Source: Physcia stellaris (lineage: Eukaryota; Ascomycota; Lecanoromycetes; Caliciales; Physciaceae). Taken from it: a stretch of DNA of 64,000 nucleotides. The stretch lies in the NCBI GenBank assembly GCA_018902385.1, contig JABSSW010000055.1:229823-293822 (forward strand). The letters run 5' to 3'. Positions 27,742 to 64,000 of this stretch are shown here, piece after piece. The notes beneath the pieces are model-generated. The model was not told where the DNA came from. It worked only from the letters and a program-made list of their open reading frames with translations, and ran no database searches. The translations under genes and the position numbers were made by a program. Position 1 is the first letter of the stretch. Every line of letters begins with the position of its first letter.

Positions 27742-27900
27742 ATGTCAAAGAATCCAAACCCATCACGATCCAATGTCCTGGATGCTCTCAAACAATACGT
27801 GGGTGATTACCCAGGAGATGTGATATGGAAAAGTCACCAGGATATATTCGCGAAGGTATACCCAATGCCTGCCGAATCCACCATTTCGTATATCTATTAG
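27742..27900 (+). CDS. Short hypothetical ORF, possibly a gene fragment
   Basis: A 52-codon frame, MSKNPNPSRSNVLDALKQYV and on to the stop at 27898. The amino-acid mix (VLDALKQYVGDYPGDVIW) looks more like coding sequence than its surroundings. A GTATAC at the end of FAK could be a donor to an unseen exon. No family is recognised. It may be a fragment of a lost gene. Confidence 0.2.
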   Translation: MSKNPNPSRSNVLDALKQYVGDYPGDVIWKSHQDIFAKVYPMPAESTISYIY

Positions 27901-39993: not shown

Positions 39994-41532
39994 TTATGAA
40001 ATCATCCACCAGCACCCACCAATAACCCCAATGAGCGTCAAAGTCGTCAATATCCCCGCACCCGCTCGATCCTTCCCAGTAATAGCACCTTTCGGCGCGG
40101 CGGGACTGCCTTCGTTCGACTCGCTCGTCCCCGCCGAGCTGTCGCCCTTACTGGTACCGCCCGTCTTATCCGACACCGGAGCCGACGCGTTGGTGATGAG
40201 GTTCGCCTGAATGACCGAAAGCGCGCCCATTTGCTGTCCCACGCCCGTGGTGCCATCGTACTTGGCTCCCTGGGTCCACTGCATCCCGCACAGCGTCCCG
40301 CTGGCGCCTCCTGAACATTGGAGCGCAGCTGCCGTCGCCGAGGCCTTGAGTCTCGGCATGATGAAGCCGTAGGTGAAGGGCGCCAGTTTGAGCGTTGCGG
40401 CCATCCAGCGGGAGAGGTATGCCTTGAAACTGTAGTTGTCGGTGTTACAGGTACCGTGTGGCTCGCACGCTTGTTCGTACATGACATTTGGGGGGTTCGG
40501 AGGTTGTGAGAAAAAGAGATCGGAGTGGTTGAGCATGCCGTTGATTCGTGTTTGCCAAAGTTGTTGCTCGGCTCCCTCAGTCTGGAGAGGGTGGTTAGCG
40601 GGTGTGAAAGACGAAGTGCAGAGCAACTTACCAGGTTGTACATATTCGCAGCACCAAGCAGGAAAACTCCAACGTTGTAGGTCCACTCAACTCTGTTCAC
40701 ATCAGAGCAGTTCAATGTGGTGTGAGCCCCGTCGTAGAAATGGTAATCTTGCGACAGTAATCCCGTATGTGATATCCAGTCATAGACTTTGTTCGCCCAA
40801 TCTGCATAGGTTTGGTTCCCAGTGTAGACCGCAAGGCGAGCGGCTAGATTGAAGAAACAGCCATTCGATATCGTATTCTTGTAGTCATAGCCGGTATTAA
40901 AGGCAAAGATCTGCCACCTGAGACCTCCATTGCAGAACTGCGTATCCCAACGTGCTGCTTGCCTGTTGAAGACGGCCTGGGCAAGAGCAAGCCATTGTGG
41001 TTGATCGGCAGGTGGATCGGGGTATTTTTGCTCTGCAGCCCCCATGACTGCCAGTGCCCAAAACCCTTGATCGTCATTTCCTTCGGTCTTGGTTTGGTTC
41101 GGGGTCATATAGTCATGTTCAGGGCCAGTCTGGAATAGTAATGCTTGGGTTGTAATCTCGTTGTATGCATCGTCACCCGTATAGTACCAGTAATCGACCA
41201 ATGTCCCAAACATGGCTCCTGCTTCCCACCAATAATACGGTTGAGGTAGATTGCCTGGAACGTCGCCGGTGTTATTCCCTGTGTAGAAGTGGACCAAATC
41301 CCATGCCACTTGTTTAGCGGCAGCTCTGACGGAGTCTAGTATACTGACATTAGCCATAATCCAGCTTAACAGAGGTGGTACCATGTATTTGGGGGCAGAG
41401 GTGTTCCTTACCAGGAGACTCCACGTCTAATTGGATCGCTGTGGCGAAAGTGCTCCCTAGCAGCATGAGAGATGCGTCGGCGAGCCATGAGTGTGATATC
41501 CTCCTCGACCGAGAGGCGGGGGAGAATCTCAT
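39994..41532 (-). CDS. GPI-anchored GH76 alpha-1,6-mannanase (DFG5/DCW1-like)
   Basis: A glycoside hydrolase family 76 cell-wall enzyme; fungal members are proposed to move GPI-mannoproteins from the membrane to wall glucan. Exons 41532-41412, 41335-40632 and 40581-39994 join in phase to 470 residues. A basic start and the hydrophobic [13 protein letters not shown] give a signal peptide. Motifs are [39 protein letters not shown] (the adjacent Asp pair is catalytic in GH76), [18 protein letters not shown] and [20 protein letters not shown]. The C-terminus is Ser/Thr/Gly-rich and ends with a hydrophobic tail ([19 protein letters not shown]), as in GPI signals. Several N-glycosylation sequons (NNT, NQT, NCS) are visible. 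Confidence 0.9.
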
Positions 41533-42831
41533 TTTATGTATTCCGGGGGGAAGTGAGATATGATCTGAATATGGCGAATGGGAGGTAGGGTAGTGAAGTT
41601 GGCTGGAGGTCGGACTTCAAGAGCCGCCAGTGCTCTTTCCAGTCCTCAAGCGTCAAGCCTTGATTATTACCACTAATATTATGCTGTGAAATGACGAAGA
41701 AAAGGCTCAGGAGCCTGATGTTTGGGAGGTGTTGCAGTGACAAAGTTTCCAATCGATCTATTGTAGGGGACTCAGGAGTGAACCATGGGGTACCTTTCTA
41801 GCGGGGAGACAGACAGTAGAATAAGGCGGACCGATGGAAAGGTGCAACGAGTGACTGCGAGCATATGTGAGTGTCGCAAAGGGTCGGGGAGTAGAGTGAA
41901 TGACAATAATTTAGAGAAGGAATTGGACTCTATTATTTCGTTGTGTAAGCAGTGTCCAGTAGTCTCCAGATGACGCGGCGAACAATTGGGTTGCCAGGGA
42001 CAAAGTGATCGACAGCTAACGCTCGATTAGGGTTAGAAGAACTAAACAGCTTTCAGCGACGACGGCAGTCTTTTCAAGGGTAGATGAGTGATAAGGTGTC
42101 TTTACGGGATATGATCATGTTTCGAGTGTGAGGGAAAGAGTTGTCTATGCAGAGGGGAAGCCCATCTCATAAAGATGCAAATCAAGTTTGTGATGGCACA
42201 CGACCTGTCTCGTTCGTGCATTAACAGTCGGTTACGGATACTAAGAATAGCTCAATACGAACTTTTTCCTGCTTGGTTGACGTGAGATCACAGGGAAGTT
42301 CAGGGAAAATCTCCGGTAATACCAAACAGATAGTTGGGTTTGCAAATATTCAATTTTAAGATCATAGACCTCATTATCGTTCATCCGTGTCGAGCTGTTT
42401 GCATCAAGGTGAAGTCAATAACGCCACACGCCACGAATGAATTGAGGCGCATAAGCTTAGTCAGCCGCGCTACCGATTACTGTCGCTCGTCACCTTTCTG
42501 GCTGGCAACAACACCGATTGACTCTGACCAAACCCCAACCACGACTGTCCTTTCTCTCCATCATTCATACCCACTCGCGAAACGTACCCATCATCAAAGT
42601 ATTGCTGAAACTTTATCATCAGACGCCATTCACACCTTTACTGCTTCCGAAGTACTGCCCCAACAAAAGAGCCTTTAGCGCTCCGAAGCAATCAAAGCCG
42701 GCGGCAACACTTCGACTTCACTTATTTGCGACCTGATCAATAACACCATATCCATCGACAGTACATCAATAAAAAGCTACAGCTAGAGGCACCCACCTAC
42801 CACTGAACCAGCAACGCCTACAACCATCACA
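41533..42831. other. Intergenic region between divergent genes
   Basis: 1.3 kb upstream of both the GH76 gene and the synaptobrevin gene. The stretch 42500-42831 is CT/CA-rich and probably holds the 5' leader of the latter. No additional gene is supported. Confidence 0.4.
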
Positions 42832-43589
42832 ATGGCCGGTCGCGAGCAGCCATACGATCCATACATTCCTGCCGGAGGTAGTGCACCAGGAGCAGGCAAT
42901 TCAGCACAAGATGGAGGCAACCAGCGAACAGCAGCTCTACAAGCGGTGAGTTGTGGTTACTACCATATGCTATGTTACCTACCTTGATGTGGCTACTGCG
43001 GTCGCGGAGCACGTTAGCCAGCGGGCCTCCACAGGTTCTAGCGAAGACCTCTCACTGGACCCGATCTTCCATGAGACTGTTTTCATCAACCAAGCACCTT
43101 TGGGGCATAGCTGGTTGCTACTGCAGCTTTGGAGCCCGCAGCTGAAGGTCACCGGAGCTGTCTCAACTTCTTCTCCGGTTTCCAGCCTTCTTGGCCCGGC
43201 TACTCGATCACAGCATCTTAATCCACATACATCTCCGTTGCAGAATCTATGCTAATTTTTCTCGATCAAATAGCAAATCGACGACACGGTCGGCATCATG
43301 CGCCAAAACATCACACGAGTTCAAGAGCGCGGCGAAAACGTCGACCGACTAGGCGACAAGACCCAAGGCTTGTCGGATTCAGCAGCAAACTTCCGCCGCG
43401 GTGCGAACCGAGTACGCAAGCAAATGTTCTGGAAGAACATGAAGATGAGGGTCTGGGTCATCATCGGCATAATCGTCTTGCTCGCTCTGATCATTATTCC
43501 AAGTAAGGGCTCAATTTATCGGCAAACAGCCGTAGTCGTGAGGGTTTGCGCTGACTGTGCTTTCAGTTGCGGTAGTCAAGGGCAAATAA
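42832..43589 (+). CDS. SNC1: Synaptobrevin, exocytic R-SNARE
   Basis: The vesicle SNARE of secretory and endocytic vesicles, pairing with plasma-membrane t-SNAREs. Exons 42832-42945, 43274-43502 and 43567-43589 join in phase to 121 residues. The start context CACAATGGCC is good. The variable N-terminus ([20 protein letters not shown]) is followed by the SNARE motif from [20 protein letters not shown], with the zero-layer Arg, through [20 protein letters not shown] to [15 protein letters not shown] single C-terminal membrane anchor ends IAVVKGK, supplied by a 23-nt last exon. Intron 1 is unusually long for this window (328 nt). Filamentous fungi usually have one SNC gene, so the symbol stands for the SNC1/SNC2 type. 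Confidence 0.93.
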
Positions 43590-45288
43590 GCGGTGTACAC
43601 GGGACATGGATGTTCAGGGCTACAGAGGGCTGGTACGTAGAAGAGGTGGAGGTAATGATAGAGGTTGCCTTCCTTGATCCTCGGCTCGGGTGCTGCAGCT
43701 GTAGCCTTTTCGCAAAGGTGATCCTTGGGCTTCACGTACCTCGATGCAGCGACAGCCTTGAACACATGGAGTTTGGGTACTTTGGTTTTTCTGCAAATTG
43801 CATACAATTTTCAATCCCCCCGAGCGCTTTTTCTCGAGGTCCCTCATCCTGCTGCATACATGGTAGTCTGATGGGGTTCATCTTTGAGCCGCGAATACGA
43901 GCACTTTAGCTAATGTACAGTTTGACTTGAGATTTATTCTGCGTCCTTTTCGTTTTAGTACCCTTTCGAACTTCGGTTCTACTTCTTCTCGCTGGCATCT
44001 AGGGATCCTTCCCAGGAACCACCTTCCGAAGCTCTGTTTGTCGCACCAAAATCAGGTAGGCATATGCGAATAGCGTTGTACGAACTCTACCACCCAATCA
44101 TAATTCCCCAGGCCCCTTGATAGACAAGAACCGTCCATCGCACTAATTACAACTTTAAGCCTACATGTAGGTATTGATCAAGGCCTGCCAAGTCCGGCAT
44201 CGGTCTTTTCACTTCACTGGAGGCCACGTAACTTATGACAGTCTACAAGGTAAGGCCATTCGGGGGTTTGATGTCCTTTTGTTTGATACAGCCTAGGGCG
44301 CTTACTAGAGGGATCGTCAAAGTTGTATGTATTAGAATAGAGTACTCTCAAAATTCCTGATAGCTTTTCTTGTGTAAAGCTGCCGCTTTTCCACCATGGA
44401 TCATGATTTCCAGAGTGGATAACAGCAGGGCAAATTCATGAGGGAGGTGTAAAAGGCAGTGATAGTAAAGACGGTCAGAGCGAGGATCCTGCGGATTTGA
44501 ATTCAGAATACATAAGATGGACGATGGGAGGGAGAATCAGTCTCACGGGTTGGTCTTGGCGCCAAGCTCGGGCTGAGTATGCGAGCTCGGCGAGTAATAG
44601 TATTTCAATCATTCTTCCATCTCCAAATCAATCCATTGCCATGAACCAATAGCTCCACTAATCGATCAAAAGCCAGCTCGCGGCAAGGCCGGTTTGAGCA
44701 CTGTTCTATACATGTGCCCTTCCCCCTCAGGGGCAAGCCGCTAAAAGCTCCAGCGTCCATTGAAGTCGACAATGCCTTGCAATTTTGGCTCCCAAAAGCC
44801 ACCTCTTTCTAGGTGTATCAATGAAAGCCTAATTTGACAAAGTTGTCCGGCAGAAGTGATGTCAGGCGAGGTCGCCGAAAGTATCGCCTTTGGCTTAGAG
44901 GCCTTGAAAGGAATGTAGGGAGACAATATCTTTTTTGTGTGTGCTATTCATCGAACGTGTCTTCACTCCTCATGTTTATACCTGTTCTGTGGGTAAGACT
45001 AATCATCCTTGAATTTTGAATGTGTTGTCTCTTCGGAAATTTTCAAACTTAGAGTGTGAGAAGCGAGCCGCTTGTTTTGTCTATCGCGTAGATGTGCGCT
45101 TCAGACTTTGCTCCATGACGGAACGGAATAAGGGTATAACCTCGTACATACTCTCGTCATCGAGGCCGAAAAACTAAATATAGCATTCGCACCTACTCAA
45201 CGAAGTTCCACGCTCTCCATGGCTTTATATCACTGAAATCAGCTTGTTAGTGTCCCGACCAGTCCGGAAGTGCCAACCCAGCCACAAG
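43590..45288. other. Intergenic region
   Basis: About 1.7 kb. Only short frames without family resemblance or splice logic are seen. No gene is called. Confidence 0.35.
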
Positions 45289-47054
45289 ATGCTCGGTCCT
45301 GTACTTCTGCTACTTGGTTTCCCCGTACTACATGCTTTCCCGGCGACTGATACACTCTTAGAGAAGCGGTCATTCTATGGAGACCCAAGGAGGAACATCA
45401 CCTGCCTCGGATCCTCATATAACTTGCGTCTACCTCCTGGAGTTAACGGCACCGATCCTAATGAGCTCACCATGCAACAGCTCTGCGCCAAGACCATATA
45501 TGGCGGAGCACCGGCTGGGCGACATTTAGGTGGATGGTGCTCAAGAGGCCTCCAAATCAAAGACGAGAGGGATCCAAGTTCAGACGATGATTCAGACGAA
45601 GAAATGGCCGCGAATTTTGAGGACCATCCAGACTTGACAGGCGTGAGCTTCGATATGAGTGACAATTCTCATGTCGATGAAGTCCTCATCGACCCACGCT
45701 TCCTTCTAGGCTGCTTTAACCGCTGTTTTTGCAATTACGGGGTTGCAGATTTGACAACACAGCCAAAACGGGACGATCCCAGTAATGCGGATACTTTTTT
45801 GGGGGAACAGTCCCATTATACAGGAGAGATCCGCTTAGATGTAGATGACTATTTGTCGACCAATGATAAGAGCAGTGACGGCCGTTTGGGAGACGTAGTA
45901 GTCGACACGGTTCAGCTCGAGGAGCTGATCGAGCCCAATGAAGAAGGGGTTTTGCCCTTACGATCACGCGCAATCCACCGTTGGGACTTAGTTTGGACGC
46001 TGGTAACTACATCACTTGTGAGGGTGACCTACCTACATTTCCTCTACCACAGCCATATCCTGTATCCGAGTTCAGGGACGCTCAAGAACTGTGCGCAGTT
46101 CAATGGTCCGGAGGGAAATCGTAAGTCTACCCTTCCCTCCCCCAATCTTCCCCGCTTCATTTCGCTCTCCCCAAGGCATAGCACAGCTTACTCTCCTTTC
46201 TCGCCACTAGAGGTGCAAACGCGGGCGGCTACTGTCATAGAAGCAACCCCAACGGCGCCTTCGGCGACTACAGCTACGAAAACTACGTCTTTTTCTCCGA
46301 CGAAATGACACCTCGCTACGAATACACCTGGGGCGGCGGCAACTTCTTCCTCGCCGCTTCAATTCGAACATACTGCTACGCGCACTGCTACTGCAATTCC
46401 GTCGGCAAAAGTAAAACCAGCCGCCGCAACTTTGCAGTGTGGCAGATGCTGCGCAACCACCAATTGGTATTGCACGGTGATGGTTCGATAGATTACGGGA
46501 CGCGGGGCCCGCTGTCTCGGGGCGTGTATCACAAGATTGCGGACGTGCTGCCGCCGCAGGATCCAAAAAGTGGGCCCGGAGGCGGCACAGCGGGGCCGTG
46601 TGGTGCCGACGGAAAGCAATTCTGTCCTGCGCCGTGGCCGAAAGAGCTGGGTGCCATCCCAAGGGCGCCGCCGATGTCGACTCAGATCCTGCCTCCTGCG
46701 CCGGGTCAGAGGAGGGATTTGACCGTGTGTGGCAATCAGTGTGAGAGCAACAAGGATTGCGGCTCTTCGCTGGATCTCTATGCTTGCGATTGCGCGTACC
46801 CGACGGCGGAGGATGCGAGGGTTTTGGGGCTGGATCCGGTTGCGCCGCCTTCGGTTTGCTTGGCGTTGGATAGGGTGCTGTTTGGGATGCTGGGTGGCTT
46901 GTCGGGGAGGGATTTGGATGGCGCGGAAGTGGATGGGGAGAAGGTATCGAAATATGTTGATGAGGGGGGCAATTTGTATCGGTGTCGGTGCAATAGTACC
47001 TATATTGGGAATGAATGCTGTGGGGTGGCGGATGGGATGGTGTGGTTGGACTGA
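45289..47054 (+). CDS. Secreted protein with two cysteine modules (one frame break)
   Basis: A predicted extracellular protein of unknown function. MLGPVLLLLGFPVLHAFPAT is a clear signal peptide, and LLEKRSF suggests a Kex2-type KR site. Module 1 reads NITCLGSSYNLRLPPGVNG, QQLCAKTIYGG, GGWCSRG and then LGCFNRCFCNYG after an acidic Asp/Ser insertion. Module 2 repeats the pattern: YITCEGDLPTFPLPQPYPVS, ELCAVQWSGG, GGYCHRSNPNGAFG and RTYCYAHCYCNS. A C-terminal Cys-rich part (CGNQCESNKDCGSSLDLYAC, CRCNSTYIGNECCG) follows. A 90-nt intron (46121-46210) is in phase for module 2. Between the modules, near 45950, the frame must shift by one base to pass from EEG into DAGNYITC; no splice pair explains it. 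It is therefore a real frameshift or a base error in a G run. Confidence 0.6.
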
Positions 47055-50000
47055 TGGAGATGTAGGTTCAGATGTGGATGTTTTGGATTTGGGGTTCCTG
47101 GTGCATGGGAGGTGTGCTTTTGCAAAGTGGAAGATACCCAATTATGTCCGTGAATTATCACTTTGATTCATTTTTCACGCCCTCTTATCCCCTGATCCGT
47201 GACGAGCATGGAGAGAGGTTATGCTTTCGAAAACTCCAGGACCCAAGGCTAAAACCTCCCCTCAAATACCCCAGACTTCATCTATCCCCACCCACACAAA
47301 ACCCAACCCCACAAAACCCCCTCACATCCTCTAGCGCGCCAAAAAATCACCCAACTGACACAACCCTTTCCAATCCCACCTTTCCCCCCACCTCTATCCA
47401 CAATGCCACCAAGAAACCCCCTCCCCTTCCCCTTTTACTCACTCAACCTTCTCCCCTTTACCAAAAACCACAAGTAGTAAACAAATCTCCCTAAGATCAA
47501 CTCCTCGTCCTGCCCATCGATAATATCCATAGGTATGCCAGATTTCGACGGTCGGGATGGGATTTTGATAGATGGTGATTGAGTACTTGGGATTTGGGAG
47601 ATGCGGTGCGTTGAGCTGGGGACTGAAGGGGTTGGAGGGTTTAGCGATGGGAGGGGAGGGGAGGGGGAGGAGGGGGGGGAAGGGGGTGGCTTCTGGGGAT
47701 TAGTGGGAGATTTTGGGTGGATGGGTGATGAGGGAGGAAGGGGAAGAAGGAGATAGGGTAATTGGGGCGGCTGGAGGGTGGTGGTGATGTAGAGGATGGA
47801 GATTGATGAAGGAGGATTAAGATATCCCTTCTTGGTCGGGGAATCGCGAATCAGGTACTACTAGTGAAAATAGATTTCTTTTATTTTGTCTTGAGTTTCA
47901 TCCTTTCTTCTCGTTTGCGTGGGATAAGGGGGGCTGATTTGGGGAAGTTGAGTCATGAAATTCTTTGGGTTTGGTTGATGAGCTTCGAGATCTACTTTCT
48001 TGATAGCTATATTCATTCCATCAAAGACCAATGGCTAATTATTCAATCCTTTATACATATTTCCATCAGCAGAGTCAACGACAAGCTCAGAAAATTGTTA
48101 CTAATGCCGTTCAGCAATCTCTCACACAGGGATCAAAAGAGGCGTATCTGAACAGGTTACTCTTTCTTTCATTTACAAAAATCAACGTCAAACATCAAAA
48201 TCTCGTTACGAATACCATCTACACAACCTCCTACATTTGACCAAGAAAAGCTATATTCGAACGAGTTACTCTTCTTTTGATTGAGGATCGGTTTTTTGGT
48301 TTTCTATTCTTGGGCGCTCTTTTTGAGGTAAAGATGAGATCCTTGAATTCCTCAACTACTCCTCTCTCTTATCCAAGAAGGAAGACTGCGCATCTACACT
48401 GCGGACGTGAAATTGAAATGCTATTCAAAATAAATAATAAACATATATAAACCCCTTTCGAGAATAACAAAGAAGCTTGTGTGCGGTCGTTCTCGTTCGA
48501 TTTCCTCTATCTCTTCTTCTTTGGTAATTTTGATAGGACTTAGACTAGGAATACTCTCATCTCTCGGGAGGGAGGTGTTTATGCTGTTTCTGCCTAGATT
48601 TTTTTTTGATGGAGGGGCATGGCGCTGGGACCGGAGTCATAAGAAGAGGAATAAGTGGAGAGATGATGGAGGATATTGAGCAGGAGCTTGAGTGGGAGAT
48701 TGATAGAGGGTGGGTGGAAGGGGGTTGGTAAGTCGTTATGGAAGCTTGAGGACGAAGAGAAACTTTACAGTTTGTTATGAGGAGGTAATGATTCGTGGAG
48801 TTTGACAAGTACTGGGTGTACCTCCTGACAATTGACATCGAGATATGGCTCTCTAGATGATGAGATGAGATGTAACGTTCCGGTAGCTCTTGATGGTATA
48901 TCATCAATATATTGCTTTTGAAAGCATATTCGTCTCTTACATCTGTGCTGAGTGTGTTGGATTATATAGAGCTGTGTCCACGAGAATGCCTCTTATGTTT
49001 CTGCGATCCTGTCCGTCCATCATTTGTTCTTCGAACATCAGTCCAGAATTAAAATGCTCGCACCTATATCCGCTCTAGGGACAACTTTCTAATGTCAGTC
49101 TAGAAATCACAGAAGGAGAAGTCGAGATGGATGAAGTCTTTGAAAATCATCGCTCACGCTCTTGCCGCGTCCAATTCAACTATCAAGATACTCGACGTAG
49201 ACTTTTTCGAAAATTTGATCGACATTTCTGTGTACTGTCGTGATTTCTCTAGAGAATGATGATGATTAAACTGTGTGAAGCTAATATTCGGCCTGCTGGA
49301 CAGGGGTGCTGATGCAGGGAAGGCGCATGGAGGCTCAATCGTCAGGGGAAATGCTCGGATCTTTTTGCTCGTTATATTGCAGGCGGTCGCTCATTGTTTT
49401 CTCTTTCTGTTTCTCATTCTTCGAAACGTTTTTTTTTCGCTCACCCGCTTTTGGGAGATCGTTTCATGTACATATCACTTCATAACTCGGTCGCGCTAGG
49501 TAGAGGAAGTTAGCCGGCGATGCTACTGCCCAGCAGAGCCCTTGTTGTGAGTGTTTCTTGCATAGGCGGTGCTCGCTGGCCGGGCCAACCACCAAAGTCT
49601 CTATACAGAAGCCTTCAGAGGCATTAGCGGATGAGCTGAATGAGCTACCATTCTGGATAAATGGAAACCTTTCGACGTTTATTGGGTAACGAACATGAAA
49701 ACAAGGCCTTCGGGATTGAAGAGCACAGAAAATTAGCGACACTAATCCTCAGCGTGATCCTGGTCTCGATTTTCAGGACCTCTGCACGGCTGGGGACCTG
49801 CTTGAGACGCCCGTTACCTGGCCTCGAAAAGTGGAAAGGCATAATCTGATGGAAGAGAAGGGTCGTTGACGACCATCAGCTTCAAAATCCTTAAGCCTTC
49901 TTGAATTATGGCACCCTCATCCGAAGACTCATATTCAGAAACTTGCTGATGTCTTAGTGATTACATAAAAATTGAGGCTGCCATACTTAATAACAAGACC

Positions 50001-50894
50001 ATTAAACCTGTACCTTGGCTATCAGCTAGCATCTTGTTGATTGGGAAGTCTTATTGGTTCATCCTCGAAAGGGAAGGAAAACCCTGGCGCGCGCAATCCT
50101 CCCACCGAATTATGATCTGAGGACAATCCCCAATTGAGCGGTTCCAAATCGTTGCAGATGAAATGAGGCAGCTGAAGGCTTTGTTTCACTCAAGAGTAGC
50201 GGAGTTAATTTGTTTCGCTACAGCTACATCCGCCTCGTAGAAGCTTGTGATCACCCTTTTCAAAACTGTCAGGATTCGTTTCGTTTTCAATATGTAGGTT
50301 GCGGATGTGGAGTCCTTCATTATTAAAACTCCACTGCCAATCTCATTGCAAATGGGCGTTACTATAAACCAAATTTTGTTAGGCATAGCAGCTTGCATGG
50401 TTTGAGTTTGGCTTGTGATCACTCTTCGCCCATGAGTCTCGTTATCCGATTAAGCCGCTTCGAATCAGGCACTGTGGTGTGCGGTCCAAAATTCTGTATG
50501 AATAGGAATTCGATACTTTGAATGAGCCGAACATGGTTATGGCGTGTGGTCTTGGATAAGAGATTTCTGAAATTGTCAAACAAGCCATGCGAATACCGGC
50601 AACCACATTTCTATACTCGAACAGAAGGTGTTCATGCTAGCGTCGATGGGGATGGGAATACATCGCCTCTTCCCAAGAAACATCGCGTTTTGGCAATTTG
50701 AGTCTTTCGAGTCTGAAATTAGAGACGGAATCAAGGTACGGTCTGGTTTGTGTGGTATGTAAGTATTCAACACTGCAGATGGTGGATCTTAAGGGTCGCT
50801 ATAAAATTCTTTCAAATTCTCTACGGCCTTGAGTGCGATGCCCAGAGCTCCGTCGTACATTCTGTACTGATAGCGTTTGTACCATCAGCGAGGT
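47055..50894. other. Gene-poor region of about 3.8 kb
   Basis: No gene is supported. 47200-47500 is C/A-rich and 47630-47800 is G-rich. The frames found in 48-50.6 kb are short and lack starts or family resemblance. Confidence 0.4.
47650..47690 (+). repeat. G-rich tract, potential G-quadruplex
   Basis: The plus strand has at least five runs of four or more G separated by one or two A (GGGGAGGGGAGGGGGAGGAG onward). This is a candidate intramolecular quadruplex by pattern. Confidence 0.5.
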
Positions 50895-52339
50895 TCATAT
50901 AAGTTTAGGATAATGGGGGTGGCTTACCCTGGTTGAACTCGTGTGATTGGAAATTTGCTTCACTCCACTGACGCGAATTCTACTAGTATCGCCCCGAATC
51001 TGAGCGTAAACCTCCATAGACTGGTAGATTGCAGCAAGGATCATTTTGTTCTCGTAACCGATCCGCCACCCAAGAGAATCATCAACTCTAAAGGTACGGA
51101 GGTTATGAAGACCAGTCGCTATTGTCATGTAGGCCATTGCAGGTTGAATTCGGAAGGAGTTTGGTAGGGAGATAGCATTATAATAAGAAGTTAATTCGAA
51201 GGTCTCCAAGGGGTGAGTCTGGTCTAGCTTCGAATTCATCCGAGATTGGCCCGTCGGGAGACGAAAAGTAGTGATGAAAAACCGTTCACTGATACAGGTA
51301 ATTGAAAGACTCAAATGGCGGATTGTGGGTACGAATAATGGGATTCTATCCAGATAATCTTGTTGATTCTTCGGCGACCAGTCGGCAACCTCGAAATACT
51401 GAAGTCTTTCATTGAAATTAAGCCACCTGTAGACAGTATTCGCGCTCAGTCCAGAACATCGCTCTATGGTCAAATGTGTAAGCCTTCTGGGAAATCTTTT
51501 ACGAAAGAGTGGATGGTTTGTGTTGATGTCTCCATTAAGAGATAGTTTTCGAAGTTGAGGCGGCCAGAGATATGAAGTGCCCCAATCATTGCCATTGCCG
51601 TAGCTTGATTGAGCTGGAAACCATAGAGTCTCAAGATTGCGTAGAGAATGAAGGGTTCGGAATAGATGACGAACGTTACAGGTTGGAGCTTGACTGAGAT
51701 CTAGAGTCCGAAGAGCCTCACATTTAGACAGGGTTTGTAGGCTACTGGGCCTGTTGTTGCGTTAGTGTTGTGACTGGATTTTGAGTTCCAAGTCTGACAG
51801 AAGTTGCAAGCCGGACAGATTCAACTGAGCTCGGGCCGCTACGTCATGAGACAACAATGTTTTCATGAAAGCAGGGAATGGAGTCCTTACGACAATAACG
51901 ATTTCGGGGCAATGAACGTTTCAAGCCTGTGTCGAACTCGATTCAAAAGTCTCTTCATCGGAATTTTGAGCGTACTTTTCCGAAACCATCCAAAATCTAG
52001 ACTATGGATAAGGTCCGCGAGTCCATTATTAGGCGTCTGTGCATTTGTCGGAGAACAGATTACATCGACAAATCGCCGGAAACGGCTCATATGGTTGTGG
52101 GGAGAGTTGTACAGGAAGCCTACTAGAGCGGCATACCAGCTTCGACAGACGAGACACATTGTATGGAGAGTAGGTCGTTGAAACGGGATAATTTCTTTAG
52201 CTTGATAATTGTATATCTCGTGGATGATTTCAACAGGTAAGACTGGAGCGTAGTGTTCGGGCTTCTCAGCATCGGCGGCAACTACGTCTGTTGAATCACG
52301 GCGGTCTATCAAGGATGGTCTGGGGGCGCATTTGACCAT
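50895..52339 (-). CDS. F-box protein with LRR-like C-terminus
   Basis: Exons 52339-51891 and 51741-50895 join in phase (TC|C) to 431 residues. The 149-nt intron has a GTAAGG donor, CACTAACG branch and CAGTAG acceptor. The N-terminal F-box is APVLPVEIIHEIYNY followed by HTMCLVCRSWYAALVGFLYN (about residues 30-80). The rest shows irregular leucine-rich spacing: LQTLSKCEALRTLDLS, LHSLRNLETLWFP, LRKLSLNGDI and RLTHLTIERC, as in fungal F-box proteins with degenerate LRRs. It probably serves as an SCF ubiquitin-ligase adaptor (family knowledge); the substrate is unknown. The intron contains open sequence in other frames, which is why an unspliced reading looks frameshifted. Confidence 0.75.
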
Positions 52340-53196
52340 GATCGTCCAGGAGATTTGGAGATGGTTCCCATTTAGGTTGATGGGTTTTGGACAGATCTCG
52401 AAGCCGTTTGGTCACCTCGGCAACCCCGATTAATGCAAAGTCTAGCTAGCGAGCCCTAAATTATTCAGGGTTAGAATGATCAGCCTAAACGCGACTTCTT
52501 GGCGTTTGGTTTTTCACCTTCCAGGCCCCCACCCATTTCGTTAAAAGTCAATGGAATGTGTTTTCATGTTGCGGCCAATCCTTTTGCAATCCACTGCAAG
52601 TCACAGTGGAAAGCTCTTCGTGCACCGTGATCATGGTGGGAAACTCTTGGTCGCCATCGACTTTGGCACCTTGGTGTACAACACCGTCGCCAGTTTAGGA
52701 ATTTTTTTAAGAGCTTACACCCTCGGTCGGGTTACTTCATCTGCCATTCGACCAGTCAAACTCAATGTCGGTAGTCCTCAAATCGAATCCAATTAACATG
52801 GTGCACCGCGAAAAGCGGATGGGTCTTTGGAGCCAGAACGGACGACCACATAGAGGCAGGCAAACTTGCCGAGTCCCATCGTGTTTCAACGATCAGGCTG
52901 GCAATACATCGCGTATACACTATTGACGAGTACTGAAGAGACAACGGAGAAACTGCTGAGCAGTGGCCTGAGATACTGGAACTCCCATGTACCCACTGAC
53001 AGCGCTGGTCTCATTACACACCCACGCAGAATCATGCTATGCCATTTCATTCTACCCCGTTGGACCTTGGAAGTTATCGCCTCTAAAGGCTGGAATAATC
53101 AAACAGACAGAACATCAACATCTGGGGATACCGAAACTATCTCGCTCTCAAGCTTGACATGATCCATTCCAAATTGCACCTAAGAGCCACTTTTGT
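52340..53196. other. Intergenic region
   Basis: About 860 bases between two minus-strand genes, holding the F-box gene promoter. No gene is recognised. Confidence 0.35.
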
Positions 53197-55206
53197 TTAT
53201 ATTGCCAAAAAAACAATTAATACGGCGCAGTACTTGTAACAACGTCAATAATCTCAAGACTCGCGACAGACGACCTATCTCATCAACTATTCACACCGGG
53301 GCATAAAAGTCAGAGATGAAAGTAAGCACTTACCCTGCAGAAGCCACGACGATCTCATGTCTCTTAGCCTTAGTCTTAGTAAAAGTCGACATCAGGACCG
53401 AAAAGATCATGATGAAGGCAAAGACCACAAAAATAATGATAGAAGTCTTCGAGATAGTCCCATCAACCGAAGCTTTAGAAAGCACCCAGACGAACAACAT
53501 CAAGAAGACTGGCACGACAATGAAGATGATCATTGCGACGCAAGTTGCGATGCGGGTGCGGTCGTAGTAATGTATCGCTTTATCGTCCGTCTTCTCTCTC
53601 GTTTCCTGGTTTGTATTAGACTTGCTGTTCAGTAAAGTAAGGATCAACGTATACCTGGCTGGTAAATAGGAACTATGATAGATAGTCAGCCTTTCTCTTC
53701 CGCCTTCTGCCTTTCTTCCATGTAGGAGTGGAGCGAGACAACGAACTTTAAGAAGCCTACACCGGCAAACCCTTAGCATGCGCTCCAAAAACCCATCGAG
53801 CCAAGCATGTTCTTTCCCTGGTCTTAAAGTAATAAGATCTTCTTTTTCATATATCCATCCGCTTTCTTCCTCAGGGAGTTGGCCTCCGTCTTTCTCCATG
53901 AAGCGAAAAACACTTCTAAGTTCTCTGGCCTTTGTGAATAAGGATTCAATGTCTCCCGATGGCGAAAAATCTCGCCTGATGGCTGGAGTTGGTAGGTCTG
54001 TTGATAACAAACATATCAGCACTCTGAAAATGCCCTTGAAAAGTTAAAATATTGACAACTAGCAAATCACATATTTTGTTTGTTAACTACGTTGAGTGGC
54101 TAGAAGAGAAAGACAATTCCAGGGAAGACTTACGCCCTGTTTTCATTGCATTGACAGATTCCATGGCTGCGATTGTTGAAGGCTCAATGATGAATACAGA
54201 TCTAGAGTGTGACACCTCCCTTGTTGAGACTTCTATGCTCGAATCACTGGCAGTATCACTGTCACCGCTATCATTGTTGAGCTCCTGTAGAAGTACTGAC
54301 GATTCGTCGTCGGCGGAGGGTACATCTTCCTCTATTCTACCCGCAGCAACAGCTTCTCGAAACCATGCGATGATAAACTGCCGGTTTTCGCTAATGGCCG
54401 CTGGAGATATCCCAACATCTTCCAGGTCTCTCCGCAATACATCCCACTTTTCCTGGTTGTTCCGAGCAACAGTATCAATTGTCTGAACCGATACGATTGA
54501 GCCCTCACGTCTCCCGGCACGGATTTCTGCGATAAACAGGTTAAGCCTCTTTTCTAGTCTTGCATGCGAGCAGCTATTGATAATTGAGTAACCTGCAGCA
54601 AGAAGACCTCAAACGAATCCACGTACGCATTGTTGACTGCATCAAGCATTGACACATTGGATATCAACCGCAACTTGATAGCGTCCATGTCATGAATTCC
54701 AAACCCTAGTCTGTCGAAAGTTCTTTGGGATTTGGTCCCTAGACTTTCGTATTTGAGAAGTAGCTCACTGAGGTCTTGTAGCACAGCATCACATTCTTTA
54801 CGGCACTTGGCTAGTCGTTCTTTCTGCTGAGAGGTGAGATCCTGCTGTGATAATAGTTCCTCTGTCTCTTTCAGCACAATATGCAAAGCGCCAACTTCGC
54901 TGCCGTTGAATTTACGTTAGCACAACCATCCTCATAGAAGCGTTGTCTTGCAACCTTTGCTTAGATAGCTACATCCAGAGTCTTATTTACTAAAGTCGTA
55001 TTCATGCAAGATAGCAGGAAACAAGGCAACTTCCTGAACAGAAAAGGGAAAGGCTTCTATCTCTATCGATACGGAAAGGATCATTCAGCAATAGCTCACC
55101 TAGACAGCTCTGCATAGTTTCCAGACGACTCTTTGCACCTCTTGTACACCTTCCAGCAGATCCCAACTACTGCAACGAAATCTCCGACGCTGAATCCAAA
55201 ACTCAT
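53197..55206 (-). CDS. Fungal N-terminal domain fused to DUF6594 membrane domain
   Basis: Proposed exons are 55206-55100, 54899-54615, 54573-54134, 53997-53334 and 53232-53197. The start MSFGFSVGDFVAVVGICWKV, then ALHIVLKETEELLSQQ and ELLLKYESLGTKSQRTFDRL, is the fungal N-terminal domain of NLR/ankyrin-type proteins. RLEKRLNLFIAEIRAGRREG and ISPAAISENRQFIIAWFREA are its usual linker. The second half is DUF6594-like: KTDDKAIHYYDRTRI, two strong membrane helices (IATCVAMIIFIVVPVFLMLF; IIIFVVFAFIMIFSVLM), then KRHEIVVASAG. The expected family ending YCAVLIVF is present at 53232-53209, but the visible splice pair (GTAAGT at 53333; AAG at 53233) joins it one base out of phase. The boundary 54614-54574 is also uncertain. 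If translated out of phase, the protein would end GTAPY. Confidence 0.55.
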
Positions 55207-55799
55207 TGCCAGGGATAGAATATACAGATTTAACAGTTGGAAGGCTGCCGAGATGATTAGACTTGTCTTGCACTACCGCCGTCTTTGATGATGCACTAAT
55301 TGTCCAATGCTCTGTCGCTATCGTACAATAGTGCGAAGTAAAGACCAGGCAAGGCTGAGGTACACTGGATGGCAACCAAAGGGTTCGAACCTTCAAGAGA
55401 GTACGAGGAGCAAAGTAGGAGTGCACCTCCGTGGATATTAGGCTGAACGGATCTGAGTGTGATTCAATGACCATACTAGAAGCAATGGGATCACGTTTGA
55501 ATGAGGGAGGGGCCATTCTGCTGGGCATTATGCAGGCAGTAGAGCGCTAGCTCGCGAAGACTTAAGGTATGGGCAACCGGACTTTACTCTTACCTCCATA
55601 CACTAAGCTCGCTTTGTCGGGCCGAAATCCGCTAGATGATTCAAAATACAAGGGCACCATGTTCATTTCACCGTCCGATCTCTACCTTTTCCAGCTTGTC
55701 GATAGATCATGACTTGACTGCGAAATCTGAACTTCTATAGAATCATAACATTCAAAAACGTCACACACGTCTCGATGCTCATAGTCACGCATAGTTTAC
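55207..55799. other. Transition to AT-rich compartment
   Basis: Normal-composition promoter-side DNA of the DUF6594 fusion gene. It ends abruptly at about 55800, where the AT-rich block starts. Confidence 0.5.
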
Positions 55800-56989
55800 G
55801 ACTATTTTCATTCGATTCGAAATATTTGCGCGAAAATCGTGTGATCAATGAAACGATTTTTTGATTTGTTTTCAAAATCAACGTTAATAATGCAATTATC
55901 AGTTAGTATGTTTGACATGATGTTTTGATTTCGCAAATTTCGATTTCGTTAATTTTGCATGCTTTTTGCATTGTTCACATCGTTATCGATATGTCACGTT
56001 TCGAAGTACGTATAACAACTTGTTGTTGATGTTTTTAATCATATACAAATATCAAACAACGAATACAGCTTTTTTTGTGTCTTCTCATCGCTTTCGCACG
56101 AGTTATTCATCGAAATCGAATTTTTATCGTTTTTTCATCAAAACGCTCAAATACGAAGCTCTTTTTCGAATTTCACATCGATTTTTACATATTTGAAATT
56201 CGAAACATTGAAAGAACAAATGAAAACATTCGAAAAAAAATTCGACAAAACGACGAAAAAGCGAAAAATGCTCAAAAAACACGTACAGAAATTGAAGCAT
56301 TTGATGACGATTTTGCAAAAAATAATCACTCAATTAAATGATTTTGCAAATATTATCGATTGTGTTCAATACGAAATAGCTGTAAACGAATCATTAAATT
56401 TTACTGAGTTTGATGTCATTGATGAAAACAATTAAAACAAATAAAATGATTTGAATCGCATATAAAACAATCAAATCGATTTGTGTTTATTTTCATTGTT
56501 TGTTGAAACATTGAACGTTTGTATTTGCAATACTCGCACGATTTTTTGATGTTCGAAAATCGTTTTTTTTCGTGAATATCAAATGCAAATCGTATGAATG
56601 ACAATTGATAATTTTTATTAACATAATTTTCTGCGCGAGTCGTATGAGTGTTATTTTTTGATGTAATATTTGATTTGTATTGATCATAATGTTTAAATTG
56701 TACAAAATTTTCGATAGCTAATCGTTTGATTCAATTTTCGTTTAATTCACGAACATTTGCAATGACTAGATTTCAAATCAATCGCATACGAAACGAACGT
56801 TGTGAAATGTGAATTTTTTTTTAATATGTTCTCAAAGCGTTCTGCACATGATTTAGACGTTTATAATGATCGCATTCAATAAAAAGAAAAACAAAAATAA
56901 TCAAATTCGTACATTGATTAATTGAATAAAAACATAATTTTTATTTAATTATGTCGATTTATATCGTTCATATAATTGTTATAATCAAT

Positions 56990-58600
56990 TGAATAAACAA
57001 AAAAATTCAAAAACATTTGATCGTGTTTTTTTCATATGTTGATCATTATATTTTTGAATTATTTCGAATTGTTACGAATCGATAAACGTTTACGTTGCTT
57101 TATAACGTATACAAAAAAATTGTGAATCGTAATAACGAATTGTATCAGATTTTTGTTTTGTCATATCAAACGACAAACGTTTAAATAAATTACAACGTTC
57201 GTTTGATAATTGAACGTAAAACGAATTGTTTTTCGTTTGATTAATTTTTGAAAATTTCGAATCAATTTTTATTGTTTGAACGAACAATATTGCATGTCGC
57301 AAAATTGTAATATCGCAAAACGTGAAACAAATTTGCGTTGATAAAAAAATTATCGCAATAAAATGTAAAAAACAATTCGATCGATAATAAAAACATCAAA
57401 TGTAAAATCGTTTTATTGATTTTGTTCAAAATTTTGATCATTTTTTGAATTTTTGCATGCAAATTTTTATGCATTTAATTCATTTAATGATTAAACAATC
57501 AAATTTTTCAAAACATGTCGAAACGTTTGCAAATTCAATTTTCGAATTGTTAAATACAAAAACATAACAATAATTCGTTTCACATAAGATCAGAACGTTG
57601 AAGTCAACAAAACATGATTTGTTTCGTATCATGACAATGTGTTTGTTACGATTTGTAAATCGAATCATTATTTCGTCAATTGCAACGAAAATAATTGATG
57701 TACAATAACGTCGAAAAAAACATTAAATCATCGAAACAATAAATTTTATTTTTCGAAAAATCGCGTTATAAATTGTTTGATTCGATTAAAAAATAAAATG
57801 TGAAAATAATTTTTCAATTGAGAAAATCGTAAAGTATTTTTGAATCGCATTATACAATGAATAAATTATTCGCCGTTTTTGATTCAATATTCGTTATTTT
57901 TAACGAATTTAATCATCGACATTATCATGAATCGTGTTTGAATAAACGTATTATTAATTAATTAGACGAAAACAATAAGTTTGCAAAAATAAATAAATAC
58001 AAAATGTTGAAATTGCAAACAATGTGCGACGTCAAATTTCAAATTACGTTAATTTCGACGTAAAATTAAAATATAATTCGTTGTTCGATCATATTATATC
58101 AATTATTTATTTATCAAATTTATTTGTCAAATTTATTTGTCAAATATGTTCGTAACATTATTTTTTTTTTCGCGAACGTCGTTTCGACGATTCGTCGTTG
58201 ATTCGAAACGAAAACGTTGTCGATTGTTTTGAACGAATTCAAAATTCGAAATTTTCACGATTATTATTTTTTGATTTTTTCAATATGTTGTATCAATTCA
58301 CAATTCAATAAAATCGAACAACAATTTTTGAAAATGATTTTGACACGATTCATTTTTTATGCGACGTAAATTTTGATTGTAAACAACGTCGAAACGATAA
58401 TAATGAAATTTAAAATTAAAAAAGAAAATTTTGAAACGAACGAATGAAATCAAAATGAATTCAAATTCAATTGCGATTTTCAAATTTTCATCGAACGTAA
58501 TTTCGATGAATATCAAAACGACAATTTTTTCGAAAACGACGACGATTCGCAAATGAATTTTGATCATCGATTTGAAAAATGAAAAAAATGATTTTGAATG
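56990..58600 (-). mobile_element. Degenerate piggyBac-type transposase
   Basis: Reading the minus strand, around 57700-57600 the frame gives VAIDEIMIRFTNRNKHIVMI followed by KSCFVDFNVLILCETNYCYV. This fits the first catalytic Asp segment of piggyBac (DDE_Tnp_1_7) transposases: DE-x-M, a basic GR-like stretch, then G-F/Y-K-x-x-x-LC. About 108 codons later, FYCDNFFINANLFHVLRYYN followed by CNIVRSNNKN matches the second-Asp segment (DN-x-F-x(3)-LF-x-x-LR, then G-T-x-R-x-N). The Asp codons are at 57677-57675 and 57354-57352. Stops interrupt all frames. The N-terminal part may reach to about 58.6 kb, and the outer limits are not defined. No terminal inverted repeats or TTAA borders were identified. 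Confidence 0.6.
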
Positions 58601-60929
58601 ATTTCGAATTTGCGACGATAAAATAAATTCGATGATAATCGTTTATTACGTCACGAACATTATCGAATTTATCGTTATCGACGTAATATCAAATTCGATT
58701 ATGCGATCAATTTGATCAATTGACACGATATTGAAAACGATCGTAACAATATCGAAATTGTAAAATATCGTTCATTTTTCATTCGAAATTTTCGTTAATT
58801 ACAACGAAATCGAATAATTCGTTGATTTGATTTTCGAAAAATTACAAAAATTTTTGCACAAAAATCAACAATGAAACACATCATAAATTCGCATTGTTTC
58901 AAATAATTCAAATTGATAAAAATTGTTCATACGTTTAAATATTTTGTATAAATCAAATTTTTGTCATCAAACTTGTCGAATGATTTAACGATTTTGATAT
59001 TTCGTCGATTCAAAAAAACGTAATTTTTTTCGACGTATTCGACGATTTTGCGATATTTGTTGATTTATGTCGTCATGCGTTTTTGAATTATTTCGACGTG
59101 AATTCGTATATAATCGAAAATGTTTTGCATTGTGTTTGTGATGTTTTTCGTTTTAACGATCAAAAATTGTTTTTTGTCGTGATATACGAAATAAAATTCG
59201 ATGAAAAATTCATACGTGAATGAAAATTCTTGTTGACGAAAAACGATGACAATTCAATAAATGCAAAAATCGCGTTATTGTTTGCAAATTCGATTATAAA
59301 TAATCAAACGTTTCAATCGTTTTGTATATAATTGCAATATTGTCGCAATTGTTTTTCGATGTTTTGATTGATTTTTTCGATTTGCTTATCAATTTTTAAA
59401 TGAAATATCGTGAAAAATTTACATTTGATGTCGAGAATTTTGCAAAAAGTTTGTTATACGAAAAACACGAATTGAAAATTTCGATTAAATGTTTTGAAAA
59501 AAAAACAAATCATGAATACGAAACACGTATTGAATGAATATTTTTGTTGTAATTTTAACATTCGTGTTTTCGTTTTTCGTTGTACAGAATACATAATGAC
59601 GTTTTTATTAAATTTGTCGATTATCGTGCAAATGACATTATGATCGTAAACGTCAAATAATTTCGTGATGAAATCAATAAAAATATTCGTTCAACGTTGC
59701 AAAAATATAATCAAAAAATGAATAATTCGTTTTTACGATTTTTGAAAATTTTAATTCGTTGACATTCGTGACAATTACGTACGTATCGACGAATTGTTTT
59801 GCGCATGTTAAATCAATAATAATCACGACGTAAAAAATTTTTCATGCGATTAAATTCAAAAAAATTCGATACGAAAAATGTGACGAACGTGCATCGAATT
59901 CAACATTTGACAAATTAACATCGTGTTAATATCGTTATTTTATCACATCGAATGTTAAAATCGAAAATCGTTTTGACGCATTCAAACGATTTAATTTTTT
60001 ACATATGTTTTTACAAATTTTCATGTATTTGCTTTTTATTTAAAAATTTTCGTGTAATTATGTATTAATTCAATCAATGCATAACATTTTACATTATTTT
60101 TAAATCATTCATTTTTTTCAAATTGTTCGAAATACGACAATTTATTCAATAAACAAAATTTCAAATTCAATCACGAAAATTTAAAACGTCATTTTCAAAA
60201 TTAAATTGAATAAAAAAATTCGATTTTATTCAACGAATCAACAAAAAAAACAAAAAATTCAATTCGTTTTAATGTTGTACAAAATTTTCAAAAAAGTGTT
60301 TATCGCGAAAATCGATGTATCAAATCGAATATATCGAAAAACGAATTGCAAAAATAATCGTCAAATTATCAATCAACAAACATTTATACGATAAATCGAA
60401 ATTCAACATTTATCGTTTTATCAAAAATTATTTATCATAATTCAACACTAATTATTTTATCGAAAATAACATTGATTTAAAATTGTTTTCGTTGTTTTTC
60501 ACGATCAAATTTTTAAAACACGATCATTTTTGAATATTTATTGTCGAATTCATTGAAACGAAATTTTTTTTCGTTAAAATTTCAATCATGTTTATTTTTA
60601 TCAACATTTTTTTTGTGATCATTTTTTCTAAATTTAAACGCAAAATTTTTAATCAAATTCAACAATTAACAATTTTTTCGAAAAATGATCAAATTATCGT
60701 CGATTCATTCAAATTGATAAAAAACATTTTTTTAAATTACGTTTTTTCGAAAAACGCAAATTACAATTCGAACGATACGAAACATACGATAAACATTTGT
60801 ATCGTCGAACAATTTCAACAATAAATTCGCAAAAAAATTTTCACGATATTGCAAATGTTAAATCAATTGAAAATCGATCGTGACGCGAAAATTCAAATTG
60901 TTTAAAATTAAAACGTTCACGTAAAAAAT

Positions 60930-63900
60930 TATAATTCGTTGATCAAAAATTTCGAAAAAATCGAAAAAAACAAAAAACACAATCGAGAAATCGTCAATTT
61001 ATTTCGACGAAAAAATAAAAATATAAATCAATTTAATGTCGATAAATTCAAATTCAACATCGAAAATAAAAAATTCAAAAAAAATAATCAAACGTTGCAA
61101 AACGAAATGAAAATTTTTCGAATGAATTTTACAACAACGTTCATTTTTCAAAATGATATCAAATTCAAAATCGAAAATGTTAAATTGATCAATCGTAATA
61201 TAAAATTACAAAATAAAATGAATTCATTAAAAATCAAAATATTATCGACGAATTTCACATCGTTCATCGATAAAAAAAACAAAAATGTGAAAATGATAAA
61301 TTTTTTCAAATTCAATGAAAATATTTCGAATTTTTTTTACGAAATTTGAAAACAATTCGTCAAAAACAAATTTATTGTCAATGTCGATTATTTCGTCGAT
61401 AAATATATCAAAACAACGATTTTTATCAATTGAATTGAAAACAAAATCAAAAAACATATTTTCGCAAAACGTAATGTCGATATTGTTTTTTTCAAAATTT
61501 TTCAAATGATTTTTGACGTTTTATTTTTAATTTACGCAAAAAAAAACAAAAAACGAAACATACGTAATAAATTCAAAATTTTTATCATGCGTATCAATCA
61601 ACGTTTTTCGAAATTTTTTTCGAAATTTTTGTTATTGTTCAATCAATTGTTTCATTATTCGCAACAAAATTTGACGAATGAATTTCGCGAAAAATTCATT
61701 TTTCAATTTCAACGAATCATTGTTAATAACGATCGATTTATCACGATCGAAAATTTGAAAAAATTGATTGAAAAAATAAATCAAAAATTTCATTTTTTCG
61801 AAATCACACGTTTCGAAAATTCGACATTTAAAAATATTTCACGAATTATTTTCAAAATATCAATTGTCAAAATCGTAATTCGTGATAACATGTTTAACGT
61901 CAAAAAAATCATGTTCGTCGTCGATCAAATTATCATGAAAATTTTTTATGATAAAAAAAACATCGATAAAAATTGTTATCGTTGTGAAAATTTCAATCAT
62001 TTGATACGAAATTTTTTTCTAAAATTATCGATATTTGATTATTCAAAAAATCAAACAAAAAAAACACTTTAACAATCAACGAAATAAATGAATTTTTTAA
62101 TGAATTTTCAAATCGAAATCGATTCAACTTTTTTTGATGATTATTTTAATGATATTAACAACGAAATTTTTCAATTCATGAATCGAAAACGTTTAAATCT
62201 TTTAAAATCGCGACGAAAATGTTGTTTATTTCAACAATGTCAAAAACATTCAACACGTTTAATAAATTTCAAAACAATTTTTAATAATTAAATGTACATT
62301 AATTTTCGATAAATACGAACATAATTTGCAAATTTTATTGATTACAAATGTTATTAAATACGTTTTTGTTGATAAAAAAATTGCGCAATTAATTTATGAA
62401 ACATTTTAAATAATTTTTGTGATTTTATTACGATCGAAATTCGTCAACGAATTCGATAATCGAAAAATTAAATTCATTATTCATGTTATTTATTTTACAT
62501 TTATTGTGCAAAATTATTTCGAAATCACGATTTTTATGTTCATTATCAAAATTGAAATTCATTTTTTAATATTAAATAAATTTTGAATAAACGTTTACGA
62601 AATCATTTTGAATATAAAAACGATAAAATTATTTTCAAATTCGATCGTTGTTTTCATTTCAAAACGTTCAAAATTTTGAAAATCAAAACGAACGATCAAT
62701 TTTTTAAAAAAATATATTTTTTATCGTCAACATTATCGATCAAACAATCGATATTGATGAATTTTCAAAATATCGAATTATTCAAAGACGATCAACGTCA
62801 TTTATGTCGAAAATTAATTTTTTTATCGTGAAAATTTCGAAAACGACGAATTTTTTTTTCAAAAACATATTGAATTTTAATTTTCGATATGTTATCGAAA
62901 AAATTGATAAAAAATATTTTTTTGTCAAATTTTCGAAAAAAAAACGAATTAAAATCATACGAGATTTTTAACAATTTATTTTCGTGAAAATTTTTTTCGA
63001 AAAAATCGAATTTAATCAAAAAATTTGTTCGACGATTTAATAAACGATTCAAAATTTCGATTTTCGATAAAAAACGACGAACAAAATTTCGATTTTGAAA
63101 CGTTTTTAAACGTCGTTTTTATCGACGTCGTTGTTTATCAATTTTTGACAAAATCGAAAAAAAAAAAAAATCAAAATCAAAACATTTTCGTTAATCATGA
63201 AAATATTAAACGAAATTATTGACGACGTTCAAAAAAATTTAATCAAAATAAAATTTGATTTCGATTTCGATTTCAAAAAAATTTTAAAATCATGAAACAA
63301 TTCGAAAAATTGAAACGAAAAATTTTTGATTTTTTTAAATGATTCGAAAACGTATTCAATTTCAAAAAAACAAATAAATTATTTTTTCACAAATTTTACG
63401 ATCACAAAATCGAATTGATCGAAAAACACGATTCAATTATTTCGAAATCGAATGTATTTTTATCGTTTAAAAAAATTCGAAATTTTTCAAAAATATTTTC
63501 ACGAAAATTTTTCAAAAAAAATTTATTAATTCAAACAAAACATTGTACGTATCGTTCATTTTATTCGTTGTCAAATCGAACGAACAATTTCGTTTTGTAT
63601 GAATTATCGAAAATTGAACGTTATAATCAAACACAACAATTATTCAATATCGTCATTTGAAAATTTTCGATTCGAATTATAAATTAAAATTTTTATTCAA
63701 ATTGGCTATTATATCGATTTTCAATAAATTTCGAAATTAATTCACAAATCCAGCACTTGATTATTTTTATATGCTCGTTAAACATTTACAAATATTCTGT
63801 ATTGTTTTTCGAATCGATCAAATTAACGATTAAACTGACAACATTATATAAACGATTGGTTATTTAATATATTAATCATTTTTGTCAAATATATTTAAAC

Positions 63901-64000
63901 GACATTTATTTACAACAAAATTCGACGAAAACATTTAACGACATTTCATTCAAATATAGAACACAACCTATAAAAAAATATCCATTAAAATCGCTTAACG
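60930..64000 (+). mobile_element. Degenerate Ty3-type LTR retrotransposon (gag-PR-RT)
   Basis: The plus strand, read through stops, gives a gag domain from about 61270 to 62072 (FSKFFSKFLLLFNQLFHYSQ and LTNEFREKFIFQFQRI resemble the retrotrans-gag core). A zinc-knuckle remnant CYRCENFNHLIRNFF lies near 61974-62020, with the last Cys replaced by Phe. A retropepsin-like region at about 62290-62720 has KYVFVDKKIAQLIYETF and, after a stop in place of Trp, a segment fitting the LG-x-x-WL-x-x-H motif. The start of the reverse transcriptase shows the family hallmark YDHKIEL at 63397-63417. Several internal stops are TGA where Trp is expected. Upstream, 60930-61270 is Lys/Asn-rich coil-like. LTRs were not found, and the element probably continues beyond the window. 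Confidence 0.65.

Follow-up and report, generated by a model that had tools for sequence, protein, structure and literature searches.

The described systems closest to the one considered here are repeat-induced point mutation (RIP) and other C-to-T processes in repeats, which differ in the base that follows the mutated cytosine; statements from the literature, here and below, rest on portions of the papers cited. In Neurospora the order of preference is CpA > CpT > CpG > CpC (PMC5496416), and a strong CpT component is also reported there by RIPCAL for Tad1 (PMC2621366). Alignments from known RIP-capable fungi are dominated by CpT-to-TpT changes (PMC7882544). Transposons of Botrytis, Sclerotinia, and Magnaporthe carry CpT signatures, with CpT exceeding CpA in Magnaporthe and in one Botrytis strain (PMC4352252), and in Monilinia CpC-to-TpT double changes occur alongside the classical CpA type (PMC8959702). 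A k-mer screen of 1,239 species concluded that RIP-like defenses share a CpA preference (PMC12543289). Here, we describe a 64,000-nucleotide stretch of Physcia stellaris contig JABSSW010000055.1 (hereafter the window; the genome holding it comprises 44.0 Mb in 147 contigs), which ends in an AT-rich block where cytosine has nearly vanished before pyrimidines (CpY) and is retained before A and G.

Results

An AT-Rich Block Depleted of CpY

The last 8.2 kb of the window stand apart in composition, with a GC content of 23.6%, compared with 48–50% in the remainder. Position 64,000, the end of the window, is also the end of the contig.

55744..63951, no strand assigned: CpY-depleted (C-to-T mutated) AT-rich block, defined by the top-scoring CpY-poor segment, dinucleotide counts, and the profile; it extends nearly to the contig end

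Between 55,800 and 64,000 there are 38 CT, 4 CC, 37 AG, and 2 GG dinucleotides, versus 501 CA, 473 CG, and 409 TG. The corresponding odds ratios are 0.10 for CT/AG, 0.03 for CC/GG, 1.23 for CA/TG, 4.14 for CG, and 0.47 for TA. These values bear out the first-pass annotation, which had reported that CT, CC, AG, and GG are nearly lost with CA and CG kept; CpA/TpG does not share the depletion of CpT/ApG. Counted together, CpY and its complement RpG occur 81 times, against a mean of 969 (minimum 896) in 1000 mononucleotide shuffles. The six 8.2-kb tiles of the gene-bearing part each contain 1980–2121, and the seventh, which overlaps the block, 1556.

From 57,001 to 63,700, A or G follows 799 of 811 cytosines. 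Expressed as C/(C+T) over 55,831–63,700, the remaining cytosine amounts to 0.000–0.048 before C or T, whatever the 5′ base, and to 0.41–0.56 before A or G where A, G, or T precedes. The edges are less depleted, with a CpY fraction of 0.09–0.18 at 55.75–57.0 kb and 0.19 in the final 250 bp. In addition, the GC skew is clearly negative (−0.09 to −0.22) across 60,001–64,000, unlike at 56–60 kb.

The RIP indices of the block are 0.49 for TpA/ApT, 1.30 for (CpA+TpG)/(ApC+GpT), and −0.81 for the composite, which by the cut-offs quoted in PMC7882544 amounts to a RIP-negative score.

The 3′ Base Governs C-to-T Change between Copies

We aligned copies of a Copia reverse-transcriptase fragment of differing GC content. 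Locus L039 (GC 0.43, already with four TGA) and locus L044 (GC 0.29) differ at 102 of 697 sites, and in the direction L039 to L044 these differences comprise 100 C>T, 2 T>C, and no transversions. Sorted by 3′ base, the C-to-T changes affect 48 of 51 cytosines before C, 51 of 77 before T, 1 of 93 before A, and 0 of 78 before G, so the process acting on these repeats is not dominated by CpA. Sorted by 5′ base, the changed fraction is 0.28–0.39 for this pair and 0.28–0.55 for all four bases over five pairs, in contrast to the strong 3′ rule. Comparison of L039 with L052, L045, and L046 gives changed fractions of 0.96–1.00 for CpC, 0.81–0.91 for CpT, 0.04–0.10 for CpA, and 0.03 for CpG; 126 of the 135 differences between L039 and L045 are C:G to T:A. 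The same order is found in another family, in which the step from the stop-free copy L038 to L047 has changed CpC at 81/85 sites, CpT at 57/74, CpA at 5/91, and CpG at 10/98. For three of the five pairs, hazards are 2.8 to at least 4.6 for CpC, 1.1–2.4 for CpT, 0.01–0.06 for CpA, and 0–0.11 for CpG. Both strands are mutated in an interspersed manner, with 65 C>T and 35 G>A between L039 and L044, and 72 and 81, respectively, between L038 and L047.

The left part of the block can be compared directly with a less mutated copy on contig C44.

55856..57922, no strand assigned: older repeat with copies on contigs C44 and C131, identified by alignment of the copies

Relative to the C44 copy, the first kilobase of the window repeat is changed at 18/20 CpC, 27/48 CpT, 10/135 CpA, and 6/101 CpG, and the next kilobase at 0/1, 27/34, 21/136, and 7/107, respectively. 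Between saturated copies, the changes from the window to L025 are 29/215 CpA, 7/270 CpG, and 8/8 CpT (in reverse, 35/221 CpA and 4/266 CpG); the residual CpA changes outnumber those at CpT because scarcely any CpT remains. CpC is attacked earlier and more completely than CpT, and there is a slow CpA-over-CpG trickle between saturated copies. Intact Copia copies (L035, L036, and L037) show no CpY rule, and L033 and L034, which differ by 52 C/T-type transitions, show a mild CpY lean (37/52).

Coding Consequences

CpA-type RIP breaks Gln codons, from which RIP stops usually arise. GG-to-GA and CC-to-TC changes predict instead that Trp, Pro, and Gly codons are lost and Gln codons survive, and this is what is seen, so that the damage to transposon genes differs from that of usual RIP. 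Among the ten AT-rich Copia fragments (GC <0.30), Pro is absent from 10/10, Gly from 9/10, and Trp from 9/10, with Gln counts of 7–11, as in the four stop-free fragments. From L038 to L047, Pro falls from 8 to 0, Gly from 20 to 0, and Trp from 5 to 0, and Gln stays at 7. Of two reverse-transcriptase searches, each tallied over its 60 best rows, RVT_2 shows 224 TGA, 37 TAA, and 2 TAG and RVT_1 shows 108 TGA, 13 TAA, and 1 TAG; some of these stops may be intronic. The combined tally of 332 TGA, 50 TAA, and 3 TAG agrees with the earlier proposal that Trp codons became TGA rather than TAG.

Occurrence across the Genome

We examined 19 loci of at least 5 kb, nearly all chosen as copies or neighborhoods of window repeats and one of which (L001) is part of the window. 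In the AT-rich bins of all 19, C/(C+T) is 0.000–0.051 before C and 0.018–0.137 before T, compared with 0.42–0.63 before A and 0.46–0.55 before G. Pooled over 33 AT-rich segments (126.9 kb, window included), the values are 0.0019 before C, 0.0298 before T, 0.480 before A, and 0.4985 before G. Less biased sampling, with 40 1-kb segments taken at preset positions along 20 large contigs, finds the signature in 3/3 AT-rich samples (0.01 before C, 0.12–0.14 before T) and in 0/37 others. The signature is present in AT-rich repeat blocks and absent from the sampled gene-bearing DNA. The aligned copies, every AT-rich stretch examined, and the type of stop codon all support the first-pass view that C is changed to T where a pyrimidine follows.

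Locus L016 includes 500-bp bins at 36–37% GC in which C/(C+T) is 0.015 before C, yet 0.30 before T. In this partly mutated sequence, C before C is nearly gone and C before T remains, so the order of attack is visible.

Candidate Machinery

A search with PF00145 returns four matches in three genes, an open reading frame (ORF) on contig C3 and genes on C6 and C5, which on the basis of their motifs we label DIM-2-like and RID-like, respectively. The two RID-like paralogs are 36% identical over their aligned parts. Each has a PPCQ motif and a C-terminal QIGNAVPP and looks intact, with introns judged by eye. The genome also gives one Pre-SET match and one MAT alpha-box match. This set of genes points to a filamentous ascomycete.

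PF00383 has eight matches in the genome. The best of these, a cytidine deaminase-like match at C64:178666-179121, contains four TGA and no other internal stop; these may mark an intron or a copy of a deaminase gene struck by the same process.

Anatomy of the Block and Its Flank

The following features complete the description of the window.

57923..58159, minus strand: dispersed repeat of ∼237 bp, probable long terminal repeat (LTR), from copy alignments

59750..59860, minus strand: Integrase_H2C2 (integrase zinc-binding domain) match, E 4.9e-11, in a stop-broken frame

1..55700, no strand assigned: gene-bearing flank of normal GC content, free of the signature, with ALDH, EF3/NEW1-like (PDB match), SRP receptor alpha, amino acid permease, GH76, and others

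The C44 copy of the older repeat stops at 57,922, which indicates that the sequence beyond was inserted into it. Matches to the ∼237-bp repeat begin at 57,916–57,923 in 15 of 19 compared loci, most of them fetched because of this repeat, and it is present twice, ∼6.5 kb apart, in both L019 and L020; judged by these alignments, it is probably an LTR opening another element. The sequence at 59,750–59,860 is a remnant of a minus-strand-coding retroelement. On the plus strand, the block yields only noise in Pfam searches, and the window has no match to Rfam families or in a tRNA search.

The left edge of the mutated segment lies at 55,744, ∼110 bp ahead of the first base aligned to C44, with CpY still fairly dense until 55,802. 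The copy on C131 has a CpY-poor segment at the corresponding place, and normal-looking sequence resumes there just beyond the point at which the window contig ends. C55 and C131 share 29 retained CpY/RpG sites versus 0.7 expected by chance, which indicates that they inherited a common mutated state. C131 (L010 and L011) is collinear with window positions 51,212–64,000, and identity forms a mosaic, ranging from 78% to 96% per 500-bp bin in the normal-GC flank. It is 91–92% at 56–57 kb and 95–99% at 57.0–64.0 kb, with far fewer transversions in the latter. This mosaic suggests exchange between duplicates or haplotypes.

Discussion

The change in these blocks is C to T, follows a 3′-base rule and no 5′-base rule, affects both strands, and approaches saturation. 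Change that runs in one direction, nears saturation, and is restricted to AT-rich repeat blocks is consistent with RIP, and we consider it likely that the block is transposon DNA mutated by a RIP-type genome defense with the order CpC > CpT >> CpA, CpG. In such a model, C would be turned to T on both strands of repeats when a pyrimidine follows, duplication would be the trigger, and mutation would come in bursts linked to the sexual cycle. The enzyme would be a RID-family methyltransferase with altered target recognition, for which the two paralogs are candidates. Of the first-pass suggestion of a RIP-like pathway with a different 3′ preference, the CpY rule holds and the pathway is the best reading of the data; a part for a RID-type enzyme is presumed. 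With somewhat less assurance, we favor the view that the inverted rule was acquired by an enzyme of the RID family, possibly one of the two paralogs, so that the context least favored in Neurospora would be favored most here.

Several observations weigh against this interpretation. The near-identical retroelement duplicates L035/L036 (98.9%; C8 and C42) and L033/L034 (96%; C12 and C5) are not AT-rich, have normal GC content, and carry the scored domain without stops. A 4.5-kb flank common to C55 and C131 (∼87% identical) is also without CpY bias, although C131 could be another haplotype. Locus L014, 82% identical to the window, has 0.21–0.25 of CpA and 0.16–0.19 of CpG changed, amid many other substitutions. 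The AT-rich loci were mostly picked as copies of window repeats, a search for a chromo-shadow (HP1) domain gave no match with an uninformative control, and DIM-2 or another enzyme, rather than RID, could be the agent. The unmutated duplicates imply a process that does not act at all times, being episodic, now inactive, or leaky; the defense may be dormant, slow, or leaky.

The DIM-2-like ORF raises the alternative of a mitotic mutator, in which a DIM-2-type methyltransferase would keep repeats methylated at CpC and CpT in vegetative cells and the methylated bases would decay to T over time, as proposed for Dim2 at CpA in Zymoseptoria tritici. A preference for CpT is described for the DIM-2 of Neurospora (PMC13297926; PMC8016269), the Dim2 of Z. 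tritici drives mitotic C-to-T change with a 3′ context (PMC8016269), and the partly mutated copies L012, L016, and L039 are also in keeping with this scheme. However, between L039 and L044, 94% of CpC is changed against three changes outside CpY in 697 sites, probably a contrast of several hundred fold and a pattern more burst-like than slow decay. We therefore regard this alternative as unlikely.

The 3′ rule also bears on the idea of a DNA cytosine deaminase specialized for attacking repeats, whether APOBEC/AID-like or of another kind, that reads the 3′ base. The context of known APOBEC/AID enzymes is set by the 5′ base, for which there is no rule here, and a methyltransferase-type enzyme fits better than a 5′-reading deaminase. 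Although the eight PF00383 matches, including the one with four internal TGA, offer candidates, by number they are probably ordinary metabolic and tRNA deaminases, and we consider this explanation very improbable.

Ultraviolet-type damage at adjoining pyrimidines is scarcely credible: CpC and CpT are dipyrimidines, but TpC before a purine is spared (TCA 12/198 and TCG 4/129, versus 64/67 for ACC and 64/88 for GCT) and the effect is restricted to AT-rich blocks. Equally negligible is a base-composition bias, an assembly artifact, or a code in which TGA specifies Trp within the elements; drift can create AT-rich blocks and TGA is frequent in the frames, but copy differences are almost all C to T at CpY, the loss of Pro and Gly codons alongside Trp is unexplained by a code change, and stop-free copies exist in the same families. 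Two further candidates are ruled out, namely CpG methylation decay or CpG-type RIP, by the CG odds ratio and the intact CpG between L039 and L044, and classical CpA-type RIP, by the CpA and CpC counts for the same pair and the TA odds ratio.

A near-saturating process that spares CpA contrasts with the shared CpA preference concluded in PMC12543289. The genome offers a natural contrast for asking which part of the RIP machinery recognizes the base after the target cytosine. This is difficult to address because in vitro catalysis by RID has so far gone undetected (PMC13297926). The most heavily mutated DNA here scores negative, so screens for RIP that rely on indices can overlook an entire mode. 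Should a RID enzyme with an inverted rule be responsible, the preference of RIP for particular 3′ bases would be a trait of the methyltransferase that can evolve, and such genomes would score RIP-free by standard indices, leaving RIP under-counted in fungi.

Within the open-access literature searched, the portions covered describe CpA, CpT with CpA, and CpG signatures, and no signature in which CpC comes first and CpA is left intact. The CpG-type transposon mutation of Microbotryum and Tuber (PMC4352252) has the C-to-T bias in common with the Physcia blocks, in which CpG is spared. The Dim2-dependent mitotic CA-to-TA mutator of Z. tritici likewise converts C to T in repeats by a 3′-base rule and is linked to a methyltransferase, but its target is CpA rather than CpY (PMC8016269). 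Botrytis, Sclerotinia, and Magnaporthe share C-to-T change before T and have RID in one or two copies; there, CpT accompanies CpA with no CpC signature described (PMC4352252), whereas in Physcia CpC is the foremost target and CpA is spared. Finally, as in the RIP of Neurospora crassa (RID and DIM-2), C:G is converted to T:A on both strands of repeated DNA, up to near-erasure, in a genome with RID-like and DIM-2-like genes. In contrast to the Neurospora order of CpA > CpT > CpG > CpC, the order in Physcia is CpC > CpT >> CpA, CpG.

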